A stretch of DNA of 64,000 bases from Vampirovibrionales bacterium (lineage in GTDB: Bacteria > Cyanobacteriota > Vampirovibrionia > Vampirovibrionales > Vampirovibrionaceae). The stretch covers positions 124,001-188,000 of the forward strand of contig JARXAD010000013.1 of assembly GCA_029866025.1 (NCBI GenBank). The letters are read 5' to 3'. Both the position numbers and the translations under genes were made by a program. The notes below the pieces were generated by a model. It had not been told where the DNA came from and did not search any database. It worked only from the letters and a program-made list of their open reading frames with translations. This document shows, piece after piece, positions 45,305 through 55,512 of the stretch (its first letter is position 1; each line of letters begins with the position of its first letter).

Positions 45305-45469
45305 ATGAACATTCAGGACGCCACGGGCCGAGGGGCTTCATTAGGCCGACGGTCATCAGCCCCGGCAAATTTGGGGGGCAGAAAAAATATAGAGGCGCCT
45401 TCGAATGAGTATCAGCAACAAGTAAATGACTTTGTTCGCTCGGTTGCAGAGCCCCGTCTCAGCCAATAA
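45305..45469 (+). CDS. hypothetical small protein
   Basis: 54 aa ORF MNIQDATGRGASLGRRSS... Confidence 0.35.
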   Translation: MNIQDATGRGASLGRRSSAPANLGGRKNIEAPSNEYQQQVNDFVRSVAEPRLSQ

Positions 45470-45478
45470 CTAAGGCGC

Positions 45479-46501
45479 TTAAGCCACCACACAACGCGTT
45501 CGATGGTTGGGTGTGGTTTTAGCTTCCAGTACTGGGACGCCTTGGGTGCAGAGGTCGACGACCTTGGGGCAGCGGGGGGCAAAGGCGCAGGCGTTTAGGG
45601 GAATCTCTCCCACAGCGGGTGGAGCCCCTTCAATGGCTTCCAGTGTTCCGGTATGGGCCAAGGTGGGGATGCTATGGAGCAAGCCTTGGGTGTACGGGTG
45701 CTGAGGGTTGGCAAATAAGTCGTTAGTGGTAGCGGTCTCCACCAAACGCCCCGCGTACATGACGGCCACACGGTCGCACACTTGGGCCACCACGCCCAAA
45801 TCGTGGGTAATCAGTAAGATGCTCATGCCGCGTTCGGCACGAAGGGTGAGTAAGAGCTCTAAAATTTGGGCTTGGACGGTGACATCCAAAGCCGTGGTGG
45901 GCTCATCGGCAATCAGTACGCTTGGTGAGCAGCACAGGGCCATGGCAATCATCACGCGCTGGCGCATGCCGCCGCTAAATTCATGGGGGTATTGATCAAA
46001 TCGGTTTGCTGCCGATGGAATTCGAACCGACTCAAGCGCTTCAATGGCTTTGACCTTGGCTTCTTTGGCTGATAGTGGCTGATGGGCTAGCAGCACTTCC
46101 GTAATTTGTTCACCAATGGTGTAGACAGGATTCAGAGAGGTCATGGGGTCTTGGGGAATGTAGGCAATGCGGGCACCGCGTCGTTTGCGAAGTTCATTGC
46201 CCGAAAGCAGCAGAAGATTCTCCGACGCTTTGGCAGGATTTAACAAATGAACACTACCGCCAGTGATTTGGCCCGGCGAAGGCACTAGGTTGAGGCAAGC
46301 CAAGCTTGTCAAACTTTTGCCACAGCCCGATTCACCCACCAGCCCCAAAATTTCTCCCTGCTGCAAGTCAAAAGACACATCCAAAATCGCTGGCGACATT
46401 CCTTCTGGCCGAGGAAAGCCAATGGAAAGGTGTTGTACCTGCAAAGCGGCTTGTGTGCCAGCGCCAGAAAGGGGTAATGACGGTTGCTGGAGGAGCGACA
46501 T
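45479..46501 (-). CDS. oligo/dipeptide ABC transporter ATP-binding protein (DppD/OppD-like)
   Basis: [51 protein letters not shown]-terminal CAFAPRCP. Confidence 0.93.
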
Positions 46502-46748
46502 GGGAACCTTTCTAAGAAGTGCCCCCTATTGTAAAGGACTTTTACAGGAATGGATGCGCTACGGAGTGCACCCTAACAAAGGGGCGTCTAACCCCCCTTG
46601 CCCCGAGCGATCTCTTGGCGCACAATAAGGCCACTTCATTCTATCGATAGATTGCGCTAATGAGGTGCTTTCAGCCTTCAATAGTGCGCTTTCGGTCAGA
46701 GTAGGGTCGTATTCAAGGGGTTGGCGTGTCTGTTGCCTGCTTGATGCG

Positions 46749-46780
46749 CTCATTCCATCCCGCGGAGCGAATGGAATGAG
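46749..46780. promoter_or_regulatory. 10-bp inverted repeat upstream of ccoN
   Basis: CTCATTCCAT-N12-ATGGAATGAG, no T tract. Confidence 0.45.
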
Positions 46781-46831
46781 AGGCTTACTGGATAGATTGA
46801 TTTCATCAATGAATTTTAAGGAACGACTTTT

Positions 46832-48238
46832 ATGGCGTGGCTCAACCGCCTTACGGCTGAAGTATTTAGTAACGAACCCTTCAGCGCCAGTCGCAATTTT
46901 TTAGTCTCTGCCATTTTTTGGCTGGTCATCGGTGTCACCTTGGGTACATTGGCCGGTGCTTTAATGGTGTGGCCGGATTTGATTACAGGTATTGGTAACT
47001 TGTCTTTTGGGCGCTTGCGGCCAGCCCACGTCAATATGGTGACCCTCGGCTGGTTATCCATGGGTTACGTAGGGTGTTACTTTTATATTTTACCGGTGTT
47101 GGTTCGCCGCAAGGGTATTTGGAACGAGCGCTTTGCCAACATCACTATGGTGGCTTGGAATTTAGTGGTAGGTATTGGTATTTTTTGCATTACCAATGGG
47201 TTTACCGAGGCCCGCGAGTATGCGGAGCTGGGTTGGTGCTTTGATATTTTAGTACTGGCGGCTTTGCTGGCGTTGGGTGTGAATGGTTATATGACCGTTC
47301 TTACGGGCGAAGAAAAAAAATGGTATGTGTCTATTTGGTACATTTTGGGGTCGTTGTTCTGGTTCCCTCTGGTGTACGTTATTGGTAACCGGGTGTTTGT
47401 TTCCTTTGAGGGCTTGAATGATTCCATTGCCAACTGGTTCTATGGTCACAATATTTTGGGCATGTGGTTTACGGTGGGCGGTGTGGGTATTTTGTACTAT
47501 TTGCTCCCTCGTTTTACGGGTGCGCCCCTCTATAGTCACACCCTCTCTATGATTGGTTTTTGGACTATTGGGATGTTCTATGCACCCACTGGAACCCACC
47601 ATATTTTGCAATCGCCGGTGCCAGAGTGGCTCAAAGCCATTGCTGTTATTAGCAGTGTGTTTTTGTTGGTACCGGTACTCACGGTGCTTACCAACTTTTT
47701 TATGACCATGCGTCACAAGTGGTATCTGGCCGCAGATCATATTCCCTTGCGTTTTGTAATCTCAGCCGGTATTGCGTATTTGCTTACCTGTATTCAGGGG
47801 CCCTTTCAGGCCACACGGTCTATTAACTGGTATTTGCACTTTAGTAACTGGGTGGTGGGTCACGCTCACTTGGCCTTGCTCGCGACGTTTTCTTTCATTG
47901 TGTTTGCTGCCACGTATTACATCATCCCCAAGGTAACGGGCAAAAAAATCTACAGCAAAAAACTGGCGGTGCTTCACTTCTGGCTTACCCTCATTGGCTG
48001 GATGCTCATGCTGATTTCTCTCACCATCGCTGGCCTCATTCAGGCGGCGGGCTGGCATTTCTCCATTGCCATGGATCAGTGGGCCTTTGAGCAAGAACCC
48101 TACATGTTGGTTCGCTTCTTGTCGGGCGTGATGATCACGCTGGGCCAAGTGTTCTTCTTGTTTAACATTTACAAAACGGTGTTTAGCAAAGATGCGGAGC
48201 CTGCTCCACACTCGCCCACCGGTATTGATTTTGTTTAA
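46832..48238 (+). CDS. ccoN: cbb3-type cytochrome c oxidase subunit I
   Basis: YGHNILGMWFTVGGVGILYYLLPR, GTHHILQSPVPEW, VVGHAHLALLATFSF. Confidence 0.92.
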   Translation: MAWLNRLTAEVFSNEPFSASRNFLVSAIFWLVIGVTLGTLAGALMVWPDLITGIGNLSFGRLRPAHVNMVTLGWLSMGYVGCYFYILPVLVRRKGIWNERFANITMVAWNLVVGIGIFCITNGFTEAREYAELGWCFDILVLAALLALGVNGYMTVLTGEEKKWYVSIWYILGSLFWFPLVYVIGNRVFVSFEGLNDSIANWFYGHNILGMWFTVGGVGILYYLLPRFTGAPLYSHTLSMIGFWTIGMFYAPTGTHHILQSPVPEWLKAIAVISSVFLLVPVLTVLTNFFMTMRHKWYLAADHIPLRFVISAGIAYLLTCIQGPFQATRSINWYLHFSNWVVGHAHLALLATFSFIVFAATYYIIPKVTGKKIYSKKLAVLHFWLTLIGWMLMLISLTIAGLIQAAGWHFSIAMDQWAFEQEPYMLVRFLSGVMITLGQVFFLFNIYKTVFSKDAEPAPHSPTGIDFV

Positions 48239-48286
48239 CGTTGTTTCTTTGGTTTAACCCGTTCTATCAGTTGAGGCCCCGTCTCT

Positions 48287-49270
48287 ATGCGTCCCAACAT
48301 TAACTACCTGATTGCCGCCGGCTTTGTGGCTCTCATCTTTCTCACCATTATTTACGTGACGGCCATTTTGCCTGCCAGCACTTTTCAGCCCGAAGCGACC
48401 AGGGCGGCCAATGTGTATGTGGAAGGGTCTCCCCAGTTTAAGGGCCGCGAAATTTATCGTCGTGAAGGCTGTTTTTACTGCCACACCCAGTTTTCTCGGT
48501 ATCAAGATAGAGAAATGGGTGAGCTGGTAAAGGCTGGCGATTACGTGAATGAAACCCCTCACGTGCTGGGCACTGAGCGAACTGGCCCCGATTTAAGCAA
48601 TATTGGTGGCAAATATCCCGATGCCTTCCATTGGACTCATCATATGAACCCTAGAGTGGTGAAGCCCGGCAGCATTATGCCAGCTTTTAGCTACCTTAAT
48701 GATCAAGAAATGTCTTACCTCGTGGCGTACCTGCAAGAAGTGGGTAAGCGCCGTAAGCCACCGGCTTGGGTGGCGGCTCCTCAGGAATATCGCGATCGCT
48801 ACCACTTGGTAGCCGAATCGGTGGATGTGAACTCTTCGGCCGCTGCCAATGCTGGTCGCGGTATTTATATGCAAAACTGTGCCCAGTGCCACGGTATCCA
48901 AGGCCGCGGTAACGGCCCGGTTAGTATTTCTATGCAGAAAAAGCCGGCCAACTTTACCCGTCCTTTCTATCGCTCGTATGATGATGCGACTTGGTTCTGG
49001 CGGGTGGCGGAAGGCGTGCCCGGCACGCGGATGCCTCGGTGGTACAAAACCTTGGGCGATGAGAGCATGGCGTATGTGGCGGCGTATTTAAAAACACTCC
49101 CTCAAGATGCCGAAACGCCTGTGGCAAACATGGATGATATTGATCGTGCTGATAAAATGGACATGAACTATTGGCAGATTGAAGCAGCCAAAAACAGCTT
49201 AGGTCAAAATGATCCGTTCCAAGCCTACGCACCTACCACCTTTAAGGCTGCTGTTGGAGGAGCCCACTAA
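48287..49270 (+). CDS. CcoO-type cytochrome c fused to a second cytochrome c (CcoP-like) domain
   Basis: REGCFYCHTQFSRYQDREMG...GTERTGPDLSNIGGKY (CcoO) then NCAQCHGIQGRGNGPVS. Confidence 0.88.
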   Translation: MRPNINYLIAAGFVALIFLTIIYVTAILPASTFQPEATRAANVYVEGSPQFKGREIYRREGCFYCHTQFSRYQDREMGELVKAGDYVNETPHVLGTERTGPDLSNIGGKYPDAFHWTHHMNPRVVKPGSIMPAFSYLNDQEMSYLVAYLQEVGKRRKPPAWVAAPQEYRDRYHLVAESVDVNSSAAANAGRGIYMQNCAQCHGIQGRGNGPVSISMQKKPANFTRPFYRSYDDATWFWRVAEGVPGTRMPRWYKTLGDESMAYVAAYLKTLPQDAETPVANMDDIDRADKMDMNYWQIEAAKNSLGQNDPFQAYAPTTFKAAVGGAH

Positions 49271-49443
49271 TGAATTGTCCTGGATGTTTAACCACGGGCC
49301 TCGGTCCTGGATACATTGCTTCCTTTGCCATTTGCGGCTTGTTTTTTATTTTAGGCTTGGGCGTACTGTTCTGGGCTTCTCGTAACGGCAAGCTGGATGG
49401 CCTGGATGATACCAAGTTTGCCATGTTGCAAGACGAAGATTAA
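49270..49443 (+). CDS. CcoS/FixS-like small membrane protein
   Basis: 57 aa: MNCPGCLTTGLGPGYIASFAICGLFFILGLGVLFWASRNGKLDGLDDTKFAMLQDED; overlaps ccoO stop (TAATG). Confidence 0.55.
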   Translation: MNCPGCLTTGLGPGYIASFAICGLFFILGLGVLFWASRNGKLDGLDDTKFAMLQDED

Positions 49444-49487
49444 TAGAAATAAGAGGTGTTTACCTCAACGTTTTGGAGATAGTTTTT

Positions 49488-49649
49488 ATGACAGATAGTG
49501 AAACAACAGCTGCCCCCGCCGATAGCACCACAAAGGCCAACGAGGACTTTGTGGTTAACGAAACGGACGTGCCTTGGTTTTTGTGGGTGTTTTTTGGTTT
49601 GATTATTTGTTGGGCGTCGGTATCATGGCTCCCTCTCTTTGGTTATTAA
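49488..49649 (+). CDS. small single-TM protein in oxidase operon
   Basis: 53 aa: MTDSETTAAPADSTTKANEDFVVNETDVPWFLWVFFGLIICWASVSWLPLFGY. Confidence 0.5.
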   Translation: MTDSETTAAPADSTTKANEDFVVNETDVPWFLWVFFGLIICWASVSWLPLFGY

Positions 49650-49693
49650 TGGTTATTGGTTTTGAATGAGCATGTTCAATAAGGTTTGATTCA

Positions 49694-50701
49694 ATGTTGG
49701 CTCAACGATTTTTACAAGCAACAGTGATGCTGGCAGGGGTAGCTCTTCTTTTCTCCCTAACAGGCTGTACTCAAGCGACCTCCGTTAAAGATGCTCGCTT
49801 GGCGGCGGCACCCGTGCTGGATTCGGCTCAGACCCAATTGGATTTTGACTATCCTTCGCGCCCTCCCTCTCTAAAGCAGGGCAAAGAAATTTTTGTGGCT
49901 CAGTGTGCGGCTTGCCACGCTCCAAGTTTTTTCCAACAGCCTAAAGTTCAAAAAGATTTTTTATACGCAACGCCCATTGATTTGTACATTTTGCTAACCA
50001 CCGGTAAGGCGCCTGCACTCAAGCAAGAGACTAACACGCGTAAGACCATTGTATTGGCCAGTAGTCATCCTTCCTTCCGCGATAAATTATCGCGTGATGA
50101 GCGTTGGGCCGTGTTGTTTTATGCACGGCACTTGGCTGGCGCTAGCGATATTCAGCACGCCGCGACGGGCAATGACCCTGATATTGCTGCGGTGTATGGT
50201 GCCAACTGTGCCGTGTGTCATGGCAAAAAAGGGCATGCCAATGGCCCTTTGCACACCGGTCACCCCAGTAAGCACGAGCTAAACGGTGGTAAGGTTCATA
50301 CGGGTCTTTTTTATCCGGCTCCGGCGCGCTTTACTCAGTACGATCGTGTGTTTAACCGGACCGATGCCCAGTGGTTCCAGTATTTGGTGGAAGGCATTTA
50401 CCCGTCGGGTATGCCCGCGTGGCTAGGCAACCAAGATAAAGACAGCGGATATGTGTTTGATGAAAAACTGTTGTGGATGCTGGTAAAACACGTGCGTTTA
50501 TTAGCTTTAAATCCCGATTTAGACGTGGATGAGCCAACCCCTTCTGGTTTGGTGCCTGCTAAGGCGGATCAACCTTATACCAATCCCCTCATTCCTCCGG
50601 TTACCAAAGTGGTTCACTTTGATTACCGTGGGAAGCACACCACGGACTATTTTGATAACCAAAAATCCAATATGTCTTGGGTTAATGGATCTCACCAGTA
50701 A
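49694..50701 (+). CDS. diheme c-type cytochrome lipoprotein
   Basis: LLFSLTGC lipobox; CAACHAP and CAVCHGKKGH heme motifs. Confidence 0.85.
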   Translation: MLAQRFLQATVMLAGVALLFSLTGCTQATSVKDARLAAAPVLDSAQTQLDFDYPSRPPSLKQGKEIFVAQCAACHAPSFFQQPKVQKDFLYATPIDLYILLTTGKAPALKQETNTRKTIVLASSHPSFRDKLSRDERWAVLFYARHLAGASDIQHAATGNDPDIAAVYGANCAVCHGKKGHANGPLHTGHPSKHELNGGKVHTGLFYPAPARFTQYDRVFNRTDAQWFQYLVEGIYPSGMPAWLGNQDKDSGYVFDEKLLWMLVKHVRLLALNPDLDVDEPTPSGLVPAKADQPYTNPLIPPVTKVVHFDYRGKHTTDYFDNQKSNMSWVNGSHQ

Positions 50702-50732
50702 TACGGTTGCCTTTTGTTGAAAGTTTGACGTG

Positions 50733-51377
50733 ATGGATCGTAGAGCCTTTCTGAAACTCTTACTCAGCCTCCCGGTTATCGGGGGCTTGGGTTTGTTTGC
50801 TTCTCCTTTGCTGCGGTATTTAAGGCCCAGTTTGGGCCCATTGGCTGCCACTCGTGTGGATACCAGTAATGGTTTACTAAAAACCAGTGGTAGCAAAGGG
50901 CTTTTTACTCCGGGCGATGAGCCTCAGCGTGAAAAAGAAGTGGTATTTAAATTATCGGATTTTGTAAAAACGTGGGATTCTCAAACTTTTACCTTTGGCC
51001 AGCGCAGCAAAGAATTTACCTTTAAGCAGTTTCAATCGGTTCGTATTCCTGGTTTTGTGGTACGTATGCCTGATAAAGACGGGCAGATGGATTTCTCGGT
51101 GGTGAGTCGTATTTGTCCTCATATGGGCTGCGTGTTTAACTATATTTTGCCAGAACAAGCCAAAGAGTATAACTATGCGCAGGCTGCTACCCCTCTGTAT
51201 GCCTGCCCATGCCACTTAAGTGTGTATGATCCGCTGCAAGGGCAGTTGGTAGACGGAAAAAATGTAATGGGAAAAGTGGTCAGTGGTCCTGCGCCTCGTC
51301 CGCCCCGCCATTTTGAGTGGAATATTCGCGGAGATGAACTGGTGATTGTGGCGGTTGAAACCGGAGGCATTAGCTAG
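50733..51377 (+). CDS. Rieske [2Fe-2S] protein of cytochrome bc complex
   Basis: N-terminal RRAFLKLL; CPHMGCVFNY ... CPCHLSVYDP. Confidence 0.93.
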   Translation: MDRRAFLKLLLSLPVIGGLGLFASPLLRYLRPSLGPLAATRVDTSNGLLKTSGSKGLFTPGDEPQREKEVVFKLSDFVKTWDSQTFTFGQRSKEFTFKQFQSVRIPGFVVRMPDKDGQMDFSVVSRICPHMGCVFNYILPEQAKEYNYAQAATPLYACPCHLSVYDPLQGQLVDGKNVMGKVVSGPAPRPPRHFEWNIRGDELVIVAVETGGIS

Positions 51378-51381
51378 CTTT

Positions 51382-52944
51382 ATGCAGGCTGTTATTACAT
51401 CTCTACAAAATACGGTAAAGGCTCAGGGCCAACAGCTTCTTGCCGAGCTAAATCCTCTGGTATTAGTGCCGAAAATTTTTGATTTTATCAAGTCACGCTT
51501 GGAAAAAATTGATTTTTTTGATGAGACCAAAGTGGCTCTTCAAAAAGACTCGCCTTGGTATCAGCTGGGCGGCATGTTTTACATGGCGTGGGTTGTTGTC
51601 TTGGTGACGGGTATTTTATTGATTGCCGTGTATTTGCCCACCATCGATCAGGCCTACAACTCGGTTAATGTTCTTAGCGAAAACTTTTTTGGTTCGGTGC
51701 TGCGCGGCATGCATAAGTATGGTGGAGACGCCATGATTATTGCTGCCACCCTGCGGGTATACCGCATGTGGTTTACGGCAGAATATAAAAACAAAGGTGA
51801 ATTTACCTTTATTCTTTCCATTATTTTATTGCTAGTGGCCATGTATTCGGGTCTTAGCGGCTATTTACTAATTTGGAACCAACGTGCTTTTTGGGCCACC
51901 AAGGTTTTTGCCACGTTCCCCACCTACCTCGATATCATGCCCAAAGTTTGGTATTGGCCGTGGGAAGGCAATGTGTTGGTGAATGGGCGCACTTGGTTTT
52001 TACCCAACCTCATTGGATCGGTTACTAAAATTATTGGGGATGTAACCCACCAAGGGGTCACTACTTCTCAGGCGTTAATGGGCGGTAGTTCCATTGGCCA
52101 GGCCACCATGACACGCTTTTTTGCTTTGCACTTTGCGTTGTCGGTGCTTTTGTTGATTGTGACCGAACTCTATTTCTATAAGAATCGTTTAAAGCGTATT
52201 AACCTAACCACAGGCGTAAAGTGGCTGTTGGTGGGTATGATTTGCTTTGTGGCCATTATTTTCCCTGCCGAAAGTGGATCACGGGCCAATCCAGAAGTCA
52301 CACCCCTGCCGATTTTGTCGGATTGGTATTTTTTGGCGCTGTATCAAATGCTTAAGTATATGGATCCTTATTGGGCCACGATTTGGACCTTGGGTGTGCC
52401 CTTTGTGACCATTGCCATTATGTTTTTGGATTGGGGACCGGAACGTAACCCTTGGAAACGTCCCATTCCTACCAGCATTTGTATTATGGCCATCATTCAA
52501 TTCATCGTCTTCTCGTTGCTGATTATCGCCAACCAGGCCAACTTGGATCGAGATCCGCCGTATTGGTACGCCAGCATGGTGCTGTTTATTACCATTGGTC
52601 AGTTTTGGCACTGGTCGTTGTATCGTCAGTGGTTCCCTATGGCGGTGTGGATTGGTTTTAACCTGGTGTCGGCTACTTTCTACCTATGGTTTTGGCACGT
52701 GCAAGCCGATCCGTGGTTGGCCATTTGGTTCAACACGGAAGTGCTCCACAATGCCGCTTACGTTATTCCAGCCGCCATTAAAAGTACTATGACCTCGGAA
52801 GGCTTGAACTGGACCAACCTTTACTGGAACTTTGTTTGGGCTGGGTTTGCCTATTTGCAAGCACTAGTGGGTGGATTGGTGATGCTAACTACGGGTAAAA
52901 ACCCCATTCCTATGGGTGGCACCTTACCGGAGGTTAAAGCGTAG
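51382..52944 (+). CDS. cytochrome b (fused b6 + subunit IV type), apparent loss of heme bH ligands
   Basis: RGMHKYGGDAM..., RFFALHFALS..., ILSDWYFLALYQMLKYMDPYW; start at 51382 after Rieske stop. Confidence 0.88.
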   Translation: MQAVITSLQNTVKAQGQQLLAELNPLVLVPKIFDFIKSRLEKIDFFDETKVALQKDSPWYQLGGMFYMAWVVVLVTGILLIAVYLPTIDQAYNSVNVLSENFFGSVLRGMHKYGGDAMIIAATLRVYRMWFTAEYKNKGEFTFILSIILLLVAMYSGLSGYLLIWNQRAFWATKVFATFPTYLDIMPKVWYWPWEGNVLVNGRTWFLPNLIGSVTKIIGDVTHQGVTTSQALMGGSSIGQATMTRFFALHFALSVLLLIVTELYFYKNRLKRINLTTGVKWLLVGMICFVAIIFPAESGSRANPEVTPLPILSDWYFLALYQMLKYMDPYWATIWTLGVPFVTIAIMFLDWGPERNPWKRPIPTSICIMAIIQFIVFSLLIIANQANLDRDPPYWYASMVLFITIGQFWHWSLYRQWFPMAVWIGFNLVSATFYLWFWHVQADPWLAIWFNTEVLHNAAYVIPAAIKSTMTSEGLNWTNLYWNFVWAGFAYLQALVGGLVMLTTGKNPIPMGGTLPEVKA

Positions 52945-53321
52945 TGACTTCCGTACCAACCACATCTGCGGGTGATACCCACACGGCTTCTTTGGGAATT
53001 TCCAAGGTGGTTTGGTGGGCTGTGTTTATTGCCGATTCGCTGTTGATGTCTCATTGGTTGCAACAGTTTAAGCTTTTTACCCTAACCCCAGGCATGGGAT
53101 CGGGTCTTTCTCTGGCTGGGTTTAGTGTGGCTTTTATTCTCGCTACGTCGGTGCTTGTGTATGATGGCTACGCGAAAGAATGGGGTAAAGGAACGATTCG
53201 TAATACGATTCCTTGGTTTGAATCGGTGGTTCGCTGGCAGTTGATGCGCCATTCGTTGGCAGCTCCTCCTCAGGCTGCTCCTACTTCCGTGTCTTTGTCT
53301 TCAATGGAAACGACCGTATGA
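52944..53321 (+). CDS. membrane protein of bc operon, unknown function
   Basis: GTG start overlapping cyt b stop; two TM segments. Confidence 0.65.
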   Translation: MTSVPTTSAGDTHTASLGISKVVWWAVFIADSLLMSHWLQQFKLFTLTPGMGSGLSLAGFSVAFILATSVLVYDGYAKEWGKGTIRNTIPWFESVVRWQLMRHSLAAPPQAAPTSVSLSSMETTV

Positions 53322-53626
53322 CTTCTCCTCTTAAAACCGTTGTGGCTGTGTTGTGCGTTTTAGGTGCCGTTTTTGTTGGCTTACCCTTAATGGTGGTAAG
53401 CGAATTGCAAACCAACACAGCAGCCACCTTGGATTTTGCCAGTATCTACTCGTTGGGTTCTGCTGCCACTCTTCAACTCCCTGCCATTAGTCACATGATT
53501 ACGGCAGGCCTAAAGCCTTATTGTGTAGGCTTTGGCGCTGTTTTGTTTTTGGTAGCCATCGCCTTGGTGTTGCTGGATGGTGAAGACAAGATTGCCACTC
53601 TCAAAGGCTCGGATACCGACGCCTAA
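53318..53626 (+). CDS. membrane protein of bc operon, unknown function
   Basis: ATGA overlap with upstream gene; two TM segments. Confidence 0.65.
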   Translation: MTSPLKTVVAVLCVLGAVFVGLPLMVVSELQTNTAATLDFASIYSLGSAATLQLPAISHMITAGLKPYCVGFGAVLFLVAIALVLLDGEDKIATLKGSDTDA

Positions 53627-53681
53627 CGCTTCAATTCTCTCTCGTTTTAATGCTCGACCTCTGGAAAACAGGACCGCCTAT

Positions 53682-54845
53682 ATGACGACCTACGTAGAAG
53701 CCATTCAAAAAAGCCTCGTGTTGCCCCTGGAAAAAGTGGCCAACAAGGTATTTACCCAAAAATACAACCCGCTTTATTACCACGGCGCCTTGCCGAATCT
53801 GTTTTTATGGGCCCTGTTTCTCACGGGCTTGTTGTTGCTGGTGTACTACCAGGCCACGCTGTCTACCGCTTATGCCAGTATGAAATACATCACCTATCAG
53901 GCTCCCTTTGGGAATGCTATCCGGTCTATTCACCGCTATGCGGCGGACGGTATGATGATTTTTGTTCTGATCCACTTGTTCCGAGTGTGGTTTACGGATC
54001 GTTATCGTGAATATCGCATTATTCCCTGGATTTCAGGCATCGTTCTTTTCACGGTCCTTTTCTTAGTGGGCTTGACGGGTTACATGCTGATTTGGGATCA
54101 AGATGCTGTTGCCTTAACCAACGTTACCATTAACCTGTTGCGCTCGTTTCCTGTGATCGGGACTGGTTTGGCTGGTTTTATGCTGGCCACGGATTTAAGC
54201 GGATCGAGCTTGATTACGGATTACACCATCACCCGGATGTTGGTGCTCCACTTGGGCATTCCGTTGTTGATGATGTTCTTGTTGTGGTGGCATTACCTGC
54301 GTATTACGCGGCCTGTGACTGATGCCCCACTGGCCTTGGTGCTGATGATGGTGGGTGGTTTGCTACTGGTGGCCGGTGCCGCGCCGGTGGTGCTGGGTGA
54401 TATGGCCCCTCCAGACTTCGCTGTGGTTGCTAAATCCATTCACCTGGATGGGTTGTATGCTTGGCCCCAACAATTGGCCTTGGCCGGCTGGAACATGGGC
54501 GTGATTTGGTTAATGGTGCTGGCTGTTCCTGTGGGCTTGTTTGTATTGCCTTATCTTCAAAAAAAGGCGCTTCGCGGCCAGTTTGCTCGTGTGGTGGCGG
54601 ACAATTGTACTGGCTGCTCTTTGTGTTACAACGATTGCCCTTATGAAGCCATTACCATGGTGGACCGCAATGATGGCAGCCGCTTTAAACGTTTGGCAAC
54701 GGTAAACCCAGAGCATTGCGCTAATTGTGGCTTGTGCGTGGGTGCCTGTGCTTTTAAAGCCATTGATATTCCTCGTTGTGAATCGAAAGACGTTCTGGCT
54801 GAAATTGAAGCGGCCTTGGCAGGTCAGTCGTTGGCATCGGCATAG
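53682..54845 (+). CDS. short cytochrome b fused to C-terminal 2x[4Fe-4S] ferredoxin domain
   Basis: IHRYAADGMMIFVLIHLFRVWF and VLHLGIPLLMMFLLWWHYLRI (four His), then CTGCSLCYNDCP and CANCGLCVGACAF. Confidence 0.9.
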   Translation: MTTYVEAIQKSLVLPLEKVANKVFTQKYNPLYYHGALPNLFLWALFLTGLLLLVYYQATLSTAYASMKYITYQAPFGNAIRSIHRYAADGMMIFVLIHLFRVWFTDRYREYRIIPWISGIVLFTVLFLVGLTGYMLIWDQDAVALTNVTINLLRSFPVIGTGLAGFMLATDLSGSSLITDYTITRMLVLHLGIPLLMMFLLWWHYLRITRPVTDAPLALVLMMVGGLLLVAGAAPVVLGDMAPPDFAVVAKSIHLDGLYAWPQQLALAGWNMGVIWLMVLAVPVGLFVLPYLQKKALRGQFARVVADNCTGCSLCYNDCPYEAITMVDRNDGSRFKRLATVNPEHCANCGLCVGACAFKAIDIPRCESKDVLAEIEAALAGQSLASA

Positions 54846-54893
54846 TTCTCTTTGTTGTATTTGTTTTCCCATTGCTTTGATTAGGTGATTGCC

Positions 54894-55337
54894 ATGATGG
54901 CTACAGAAACACTGTCGGTAAATGCGGCTCCCCCCGCTGAGGCGTTGCCCCCCATCCGTTTGATTGGGTTGGTATGCGAGCGAAGCGTGGAGCTGGAAGA
55001 TCGGTTGAATGCCGACGGGCGTCTGTTAGATGATCCCAGCGTTAAAATCATTTTGGTGCCGTGCAGCGGTATTATTCAGCCTCTCATGATGGAGACTTCC
55101 TTGAAAAATGGTGCCCAAGGCTGCTTTGCTACGGGGTGCCGCATTGGAGACTGCCACTACCGGGAAGGCAACAAGTTTTTGCAAGAGCGCCTTTTGGGAC
55201 AGCGTATGCCCAAACTAAAGCCCACCGTTGATAAACGCCGTATTGAGGCCTATTGGCTTTCGGCTGTGGAGTATGACGAGTTCCGTGAACTGATTGAGTC
55301 CTTTCAATCCACAGTGTCTTCCATACCCGCTTCCTAG
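54894..55337 (+). CDS. MvhD/FlpD-like iron-sulfur protein (hydrogenase delta-subunit family)
   Basis: VPCSGIIQPLMMETSLKNGAQGCFATGCRIGDCHYREGNKFLQERL. Confidence 0.85.
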   Translation: MMATETLSVNAAPPAEALPPIRLIGLVCERSVELEDRLNADGRLLDDPSVKIILVPCSGIIQPLMMETSLKNGAQGCFATGCRIGDCHYREGNKFLQERLLGQRMPKLKPTVDKRRIEAYWLSAVEYDEFRELIESFQSTVSSIPAS

Positions 55338-55374
55338 TTTTTTGTCTCTTTCTTAACAATAAAGGGTATGACCC

Positions 55375-55512
55375 ATGGCCAAGCAGCCTGTCAATAGTGC
55401 CGATACCAAACAACAGGATGTAAGCCTGTTCCTCAATAAAATCTTCTTTTTTCTCCTGTTTTTTATTTTGTTGGTGATGATTGCCAGTTTTGGAATTATT
55501 GCCGAGGTCTAA
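55375..55512 (+). CDS. small single-TM protein
   Basis: 45 aa: MAKQPVNSADTKQQDVSLFLNKIFFFLLFFILLVMIASFGIIAEV. Confidence 0.45.
   Translation: MAKQPVNSADTKQQDVSLFLNKIFFFLLFFILLVMIASFGIIAEV

Follow-up and report, generated by a model that had tools for sequence, protein, structure and literature searches.

A conserved respiratory operon of Vampirovibrionia encodes a Rieske-associated cytochrome b lacking heme bH ligands alongside a cytochrome b-ferredoxin and an FlpD-like protein

The operon and its conservation

The DNA analyzed here, hereinafter the window, is a stretch of 64,000 nucleotides (C2:124001-188000) from the 2.19 Mb, 94%-complete genome of a Vampirovibrionales bacterium (GenBank assembly GCA_029866025.1). 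Between its positions 46832 and 55512 lie 12 open reading frames (ORFs) on the + strand, which specify, in order, ccoN, ccoOP, a ccoS-like protein, t1, a diheme cytochrome c, a Rieske protein, a long cytochrome b (the 'bL protein'), the small proteins m1 and m2, bF (a short cytochrome b with a fused 2x[4Fe-4S] ferredoxin), FlpD and t2 (Table 1). Successive genes show 1-nt and 4-nt overlaps or small gaps of at most about 55 nt. Every ORF named in a first-pass annotation, made from the sequence alone, was present, and our Pfam and NCBIfam searches agreed with its list; both of its 'two tiny transmembrane (TM) proteins' exist, although the first looks like a CcoS/FixS protein, scoring just under the Pfam cut-off.

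The gene order, on whose conservation the first-pass annotation had staked its reading, is kept together with the strand in 35 of 35 related loci; apart from L063, whose contig ends within the operon, only the smallest and fastest-evolving proteins go undetected in individual loci. In all 35, the two cytochrome b genes are separated by small TM ORFs. Of 58 relatives searched with bF, 38 have a full-length homolog, and the long cytochrome b (E < 1e-200), bF and FlpD occur in these same 38 genomes, with one copy each. The PF02662 match in each is single and located at the operon; FlpD is likewise single in the host genome. Beyond these, one 56%-complete genome (G016) holds a fragment of the long cytochrome b alone, and small genomes (about 1.8-2.2 Mb) without the operon are found in other families of the class. 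In the phylum scan, the listed matches showed no cytochrome b-ferredoxin fusion beyond the class; across phyla, sampling centered on Cyanobacteriota and Pseudomonadota. A promoter and terminator scan gave scores near or only modestly above those of shuffled sequences and was not used.

A Rieske-associated cytochrome b without the heme bH site

In cytochromes b, helices B and D each contribute two His, the first one of each binding heme bL and the second heme bH. Having mapped these four positions by alignment with PetB of solved b6f structures, we found that they read HRHY (26 sequences) or HKHY (10) in all 36 long cytochromes b, versus HHHH in 72/72 comparison cytochromes b (bF, the fusions from Pseudomonadota described below, the canonical cytochrome b of the class, with that of the host genome among them, cyanobacterial PetB, and PetB-like proteins of other phylum members). 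The bL ligands are hence invariant in the long cytochrome b (36/36), whereas those of bH are gone. The helix-C glycines provide a second, independent signature of this loss: the bH-side position is occupied by Gly in just 13/36 long cytochromes b versus 72/72 of the others, whereas the bL-side glycine is fixed in all, long cytochromes b included. A sequencing or alignment artifact behind the missing His was rejected, given the 36/36 sequences and the alignment to structurally characterized PetB.

The long cytochrome b accordingly departs from the four-His, two-heme protomer of the bc1/b6f complexes, which is seen in bF, and it appears from these residues to hold a single b-heme, on the Qo side. 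It does have the PEWY-type Qo motif of bc1/b6f complexes in the form SDWY, and the Rieske protein keeps the CxH and CxxH ligand residues C129, H131, C134, C159, C161 and H162 in 36/36 sequences. The joint invariance of the bL ligands, SDWY and the Rieske ligands indicates that the Qo half is under selection. The length of this protein ranges from about 441 to 688 aa across families (L047-L070), the extra part being C-terminal. The phylum also includes genomes with a PetB of 215-217 aa, which marks them as Cyanobacteria. The first-pass annotation had posited a Complex III/IV assembly with an extra Fe-S route connecting the b-hemes: the assembly is conserved as a gene unit and a cytoplasmic-side route is encoded in it, but 'connecting the b-hemes' overlooks the missing bH site, which makes the two cytochromes b non-equivalent.

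The iron-sulfur arm: bF and FlpD

The heme positions of bF are HHHH in 36/36 sequences; seven of its eight ferredoxin cysteines are invariant and the remaining one, C317, is found in 35/36. Its Qo motif is degenerate in this family. The position of the heme ci Cys of the b6f complex, Cys in 8/8 PetB sequences, is Tyr in 36/36 bF proteins. At this place we also observed an invariant YYHGA motif (bF residues 30-34, positions 53775-53789; 36/36), with a His that none of the other cytochromes b in the comparison has; given its location, the motif may shape an n-side quinone or heme pocket. FlpD has the features of MvhD/FlpD proteins, with a PF02662 match and Cys ligands for a [2Fe-2S] cluster: four cysteines (31, 60, 85 and 90) are invariant, whereas its N-terminal region contains a single conserved Cys. 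The bF ferredoxin and FlpD correspond to successive regions of HdrA2 (571-645 and 667-771). In a tree with midpoint rooting, bF clusters with the fusions from Pseudomonadota (support 0.93) and the long cytochrome b with the bc/b6f side (0.99), pointing to different origins of the two cytochromes b.

Table 1. Genes of the operon and residues discussed in the text, in window coordinates
Feature	Position	Strand	Detail
ccoN-type C-family heme-copper oxygen reductase subunit I, 468 aa	46832..48238	+	COX1 E 2.4e-78
ccoO with fused second monoheme cytochrome c domain (ccoO-P-like), 327 aa	48287..49270	+	FixO E 4.4e-30; Cytochrom_C
Small TM protein, CcoS/FixS-like	49270..49443	+	FixS E 2.2e-4, 21.3 bits; slightly under Pfam cut-off 23.1
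Tiny TM protein t1, 53 aa	49488..49649	+	Detected in 34/35 related loci; no family match
Diheme cytochrome c lipoprotein-like protein, 335 aa	49694..50701	+	Two Cytochrom_C/CBB3 stretches
Rieske [2Fe-2S] protein, 215 aa	50730..51377	+	PF00355 E 8.9e-5
Long cytochrome b, Qo-bearing, predicted mono-b-heme	51382..52944	+	Cytochrome_B N + C
Long cytochrome b, helix B	51712..51756	+	His112 (bL ligand) 51712-51714; Arg126 in place of bH ligand 51754-51756
Long cytochrome b, helix D	52129..52173	+	His251 (bL ligand) 52129-52131; Tyr265 in place of bH ligand 52171-52173
Long cytochrome b, Qo-type motif SDWY (PEWY equivalent)	52318..52329	+	Invariant 36/36; aligns with PEWY of the genome's canonical cytochrome b
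Small TM protein m1, 125 aa	52944..53321	+	No family match
Small TM protein m2, 102 aa	53318..53626	+	No family match
bF, short cytochrome b + 2x[4Fe-4S] ferredoxin	53682..54845	+	Cytochrome_B E 1.9e-28; Fer4_7 E 3.2e-10
bF, four heme b ligands	53931..54293	+	His82 (53931), His96 (53973), His188 (54249), His202 (54291)
bF, ferredoxin Cys	54606..54749	+	C307, C310, C313, C317; C344, C347, C350, C354
MvhD/FlpD-like iron-sulfur protein	54894..55337	+	PF02662, 73.7 bits versus cut-off 22.3
Tiny TM protein t2, 45 aa	55375..55512	+	Detected in 35/35 related loci

A single-chain counterpart in Pseudomonadota

A search of plasmids recovered a Defluviimonas protein that fuses cytochrome b, 2x[4Fe-4S] and FlpD in one chain; it is annotated merely as 'cytochrome b N-terminal domain-containing protein' and shows 35% identity over 94% to the module in the window. 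The existence of all three parts as one polypeptide ties bF to FlpD, and the four FlpD cysteines are common to the fusion and the FlpD of the window. The structural model of the fusion is confident (predicted local distance difference test score [pLDDT] 84.5, predicted TM-score 0.84), and its cytochrome b part resembles the cytochrome b of bc1/b6f complexes.

We scanned genomes for this fusion (483 relatives) and examined the best 80 as loci (L107-L186), which are labeled Alpha-, Beta- and Gammaproteobacteria or other Pseudomonadota, with one from an unnamed bacterium. The fusion operon has the order cox2-cox1-cyoE-SCO-fusion-hypothetical-hemerythrin; the linked subunit I has a GHxxQQ motif in 71/71 cases and subunit II the CuA motif in 70/70. 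The replacement of Tyr by Gln in subunit I has been described as the hallmark of eNOR (PMC8756737), and on the strength of GHxxQQ we infer that these operons are eNOR-type. The pairing of a cytochrome b-ferredoxin with MvhD, which the first-pass annotation called unexpected in an aerobic bc-oxidase operon, is therefore not peculiar to the operon in the window but found elsewhere as one fused protein. The window shares with such operons a four-His cytochrome b, 2x[4Fe-4S] and FlpD beside a heme-copper enzyme; its operon has neither cyoE nor SCO nor a subunit I with Gln, the ccoN protein having Tyr. Neither a Rieske protein nor a long cytochrome b was detected in the fusion operons among the best 80 of the 483 relatives. 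When run on 23 fusion-bearing genomes, the long-cytochrome-b profile gave weak partial matches (the best E in each genome lying between 1e-15 and 1e-27, versus <1e-200 for true members), as would be expected from ordinary cytochromes b.

The oxidase side and candidate partners in the genome

The residues H66, H206, Y250, H256, H257, H344 and H346 of ccoN are invariant in 35/35 loci and agree with the ligands and active-site Tyr of the C-family; by analogy with cbb3 oxidases in general, we take H206, H256 and H257 to be the CuB ligands and Y250 the cross-linked Tyr. Two CxxCH motifs are conserved both in the ccoO-P-like protein (62-66 and 198-202) and in the diheme cytochrome c (71-75 and 172-176), the latter also having, on direct reading, a lipobox-like LTGC. 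The diheme cytochrome c is likely the electron link from Rieske to cbb3, and this protein and the shared operon would fit a possible physical association of Complexes III and IV.

Genome-wide searches for partners of the iron-sulfur arm, at 94% completeness, detected no NiFe hydrogenase (no PF00374 match), no HdrA (the matches being general FAD or ferredoxin fragments only) and no NuoF. The absence of HdrA and hydrogenase, which the first-pass annotation had remarked on for this region, hence extends to the whole genome at the sensitivity used, while the low-potential soluble partner that it envisaged was not found among these candidates. The flanks of the operon likewise held no class-wide cytosolic flavoprotein neighbor, the best flanking families reaching about 15 loci. 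The HdrA and MvhAG hydrogenase that define Mvh/Hdr bifurcating complexes both went undetected, and a hydrogenase-linked Mvh system was rejected on these grounds. A NuoH is present (G000:C13:290515-291573) although NuoF was undetected, as in a Complex I without its usual NADH-input subunit. This combination of presences and absences makes another cytosolic entry to the quinone pool plausible.

A proposed heterodimeric complex and its alternatives

We lean toward reading the operon as one respiratory unit, in which an asymmetric heterodimeric Rieske/cytochrome b complex would operate with the diheme cytochrome c and cbb3 and bear an n-side ferredoxin/FlpD port, probably for electron input. The full mechanism, to which we give about even chances, is that of a heterodimeric bc complex with obligatory bL-bL transfer at each turnover and with bH wired to a cytosolic ferredoxin/FlpD relay, i.e., a ferredoxin-type:quinone reductase within Complex III. 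The long cytochrome b and Rieske protein would supply the Qo site with heme bL alone, and bF would supply bL and bH, the quinone region on the n-side, and the 2x[4Fe-4S] domain on which the MvhD-like [2Fe-2S] protein would dock. Quinol would be bifurcated at the single Qo site, its first electron passing through Rieske and the diheme cytochrome to cbb3 and O2, and its second from bL of the long chain across the dimer to bL and then bH of the short one, where it would meet the ferredoxin/FlpD port. In the favored role of the port, a cytosolic donor would deliver an electron by way of FlpD and ferredoxin to bH, as the second electron completing quinone reduction.

The case for a heterodimer comes from the heme content. 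With bL only, the long cytochrome b offers a Qo electron no in-chain route to the n-side, and the obvious route is the other cytochrome b; a homodimer of the long form would be a dead end, whereas bF, with both hemes, is encoded in the same operon. Transfer between bL hemes at about 14 Å is fast enough, as an engineered bc1 with Qo and bH on different halves works (PMC4330944). The non-detection of NuoF, hydrogenase and HdrA alongside NuoH leaves room for a cytosolic donor acting through FlpD, and the homologous fusion lies beside electron-consuming heme-copper enzymes, which favors electron input over a bifurcating output. Other points weigh against the heterodimer: the fused cytochrome b-ferredoxin-FlpD is encoded without a long cytochrome b or Rieske protein in the eNOR-type operons, which would allow bF to form a complex of its own in the window too; single-sequence AlphaFold modeling of the long cytochrome b gave no usable fold (pLDDT 42.8); the completeness of the genome leaves some doubt on the absences; and the support is sequence-based throughout.

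The same heterodimer might be used in reverse, the low-potential electron from Qo exiting bH through ferredoxin and FlpD to reduce an acceptor in the cytosol, with the high-potential branch to O2 as the driving force. The arm does sit at the exit point of the Qi electron, bF is without the heme ci Cys, and a like role in NAD(P)H production has been proposed for Rieske/cytochrome b complexes of Kuenenia that carry an NAD(P) oxidoreductase on the n-side (PMC12954380). Nevertheless, we regard this as improbable: passing a p-side electron to a low-potential n-side carrier opposes the membrane potential, the operon is without an NAD(P)-binding subunit, and in the eNOR-type operons the heme-copper enzyme next to the homologous fusion needs electrons. 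It is similarly unlikely, in our estimate, that the operon encodes two enzymes, with bF and FlpD forming a soluble-donor:quinone oxidoreductase and the long cytochrome b and Rieske protein a homodimer that oxidizes quinol without a Q cycle. The occurrence of the fused bF-FlpD homolog without a nearby Rieske or long cytochrome b and the distinct origins of the two cytochromes b speak for such a division; however, it would leave the bL electron of the homodimer with no n-side exit, a complete long cytochrome b never occurs without bF among the 58 genomes, and the genome retains a second, ordinary Rieske/cytochrome b elsewhere. Small extra subunits being common in supercomplexes, the arm could also be mainly structural or regulatory in an otherwise ordinary bcc-cbb3 supercomplex, but we consider this very improbable in view of the conservation across the class of the ferredoxin and FlpD cysteines and the four heme His, and of the bH loss, after which bF is the obvious way out for electrons of the long cytochrome b.

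Relation to known systems

The genes of the window share with the bc1/b6f complexes a Rieske protein, the cytochrome b fold with bL ligands, a PEWY-like Qo motif and a c-type cytochrome acceptor; unlike them, there are two different cytochromes b, one without bH and the other without a canonical Qo motif and with a ferredoxin, and no heme ci Cys. The engineered bc1 fusions B-B and BS-B (PMC4330944) are alike in placing Qo and bH on separate halves such that the electron must cross from bL to bL; however, they are man-made fusions with mutations, as opposed to a pair of natural genes conserved throughout a bacterial class. The fusion proteins of Pseudomonadota have a homologous four-His cytochrome b, a ferredoxin, an FlpD with the same four Cys and an adjacent heme-copper enzyme, but differ in being single chains with a CuA/Gln-type eNOR-like partner, cyoE, SCO and hemerythrin, and with no Rieske or long cytochrome b nearby. 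The Kuenenia complexes (PMC12954380) likewise combine Rieske/cytochrome b with an n-side redox partner and a proposed use of Qo bifurcation, whereas their partner is an NAD(P)/FAD subunit rather than ferredoxin/FlpD, they have hao-like multiheme cytochromes c, and bH loss is not described in the passages covered. The 2x[4Fe-4S] and MvhD-like parts correspond to the C-terminal MvhD/HdrA arm of HdrA2 and Mvh-Hdr, but in the window this arm is joined to a membrane cytochrome b and comes with no HdrA flavin part and no hydrogenase. Finally, the bcc-aa3 and bc1-cbb3 III-IV supercomplexes resemble the proposed unit in a diheme cytochrome c that would bridge Complex III to a heme-copper oxidase, and differ from it in the asymmetric cytochrome b pair and the Fe-S arm.

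Early papers on this group record complexes I-IV and cbb3 (PMC4451040, PMC4040986), and an oxygen reductase near petB/petC was previously published for Melainabacteria (PMC6349859); in the passages of the latter that were covered, these Complex III/IV clusters are presented with no mention of bH loss, a ferredoxin fusion or FlpD. In the partial literature covered, we found no description of bH loss in a Rieske-partnered cytochrome b or of cytochrome b-ferredoxin-FlpD. Within that coverage, the proximity of the oxidase to petB/petC is already known, and the loss of the bH site, the fused ferredoxin and FlpD are apparently new.

The reason for the dimeric build of bc complexes and the importance of bL-bL transfer in vivo are matters of debate, and engineered fusions have so far been the only means of testing them. 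The operon is seemingly a natural counterpart of the mutant that biochemists engineered, and a natural enzyme dependent on bL-bL transfer, if borne out, would make the dimer question directly testable. A ferredoxin/FlpD port on bH would further parallel the long-disputed idea that, during cyclic electron flow, b6f receives ferredoxin electrons from the n-side, in this case in a non-photosynthetic sister class of Cyanobacteria. For the eNOR-type operons of many Pseudomonadota, the fused module would give a hitherto uncharacterized electron-delivery protein a clear and testable assignment.

A second Rieske/cytochrome b system

The genome encodes a further Rieske/cytochrome b system at about 45358-49753 of another contig (G000:C3; L071 3358-7753, - strand). 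Its cytochrome b (366 aa) is canonical, with PEWY and four His, and is accompanied by a 192-aa Rieske protein, a 402-aa membrane protein without a family, and a 453-aa protein that matches Cyt_bd_oxida_I and has a C-terminal heme-c domain (CLACH). This system might couple a bc complex to a CydA-like protein.

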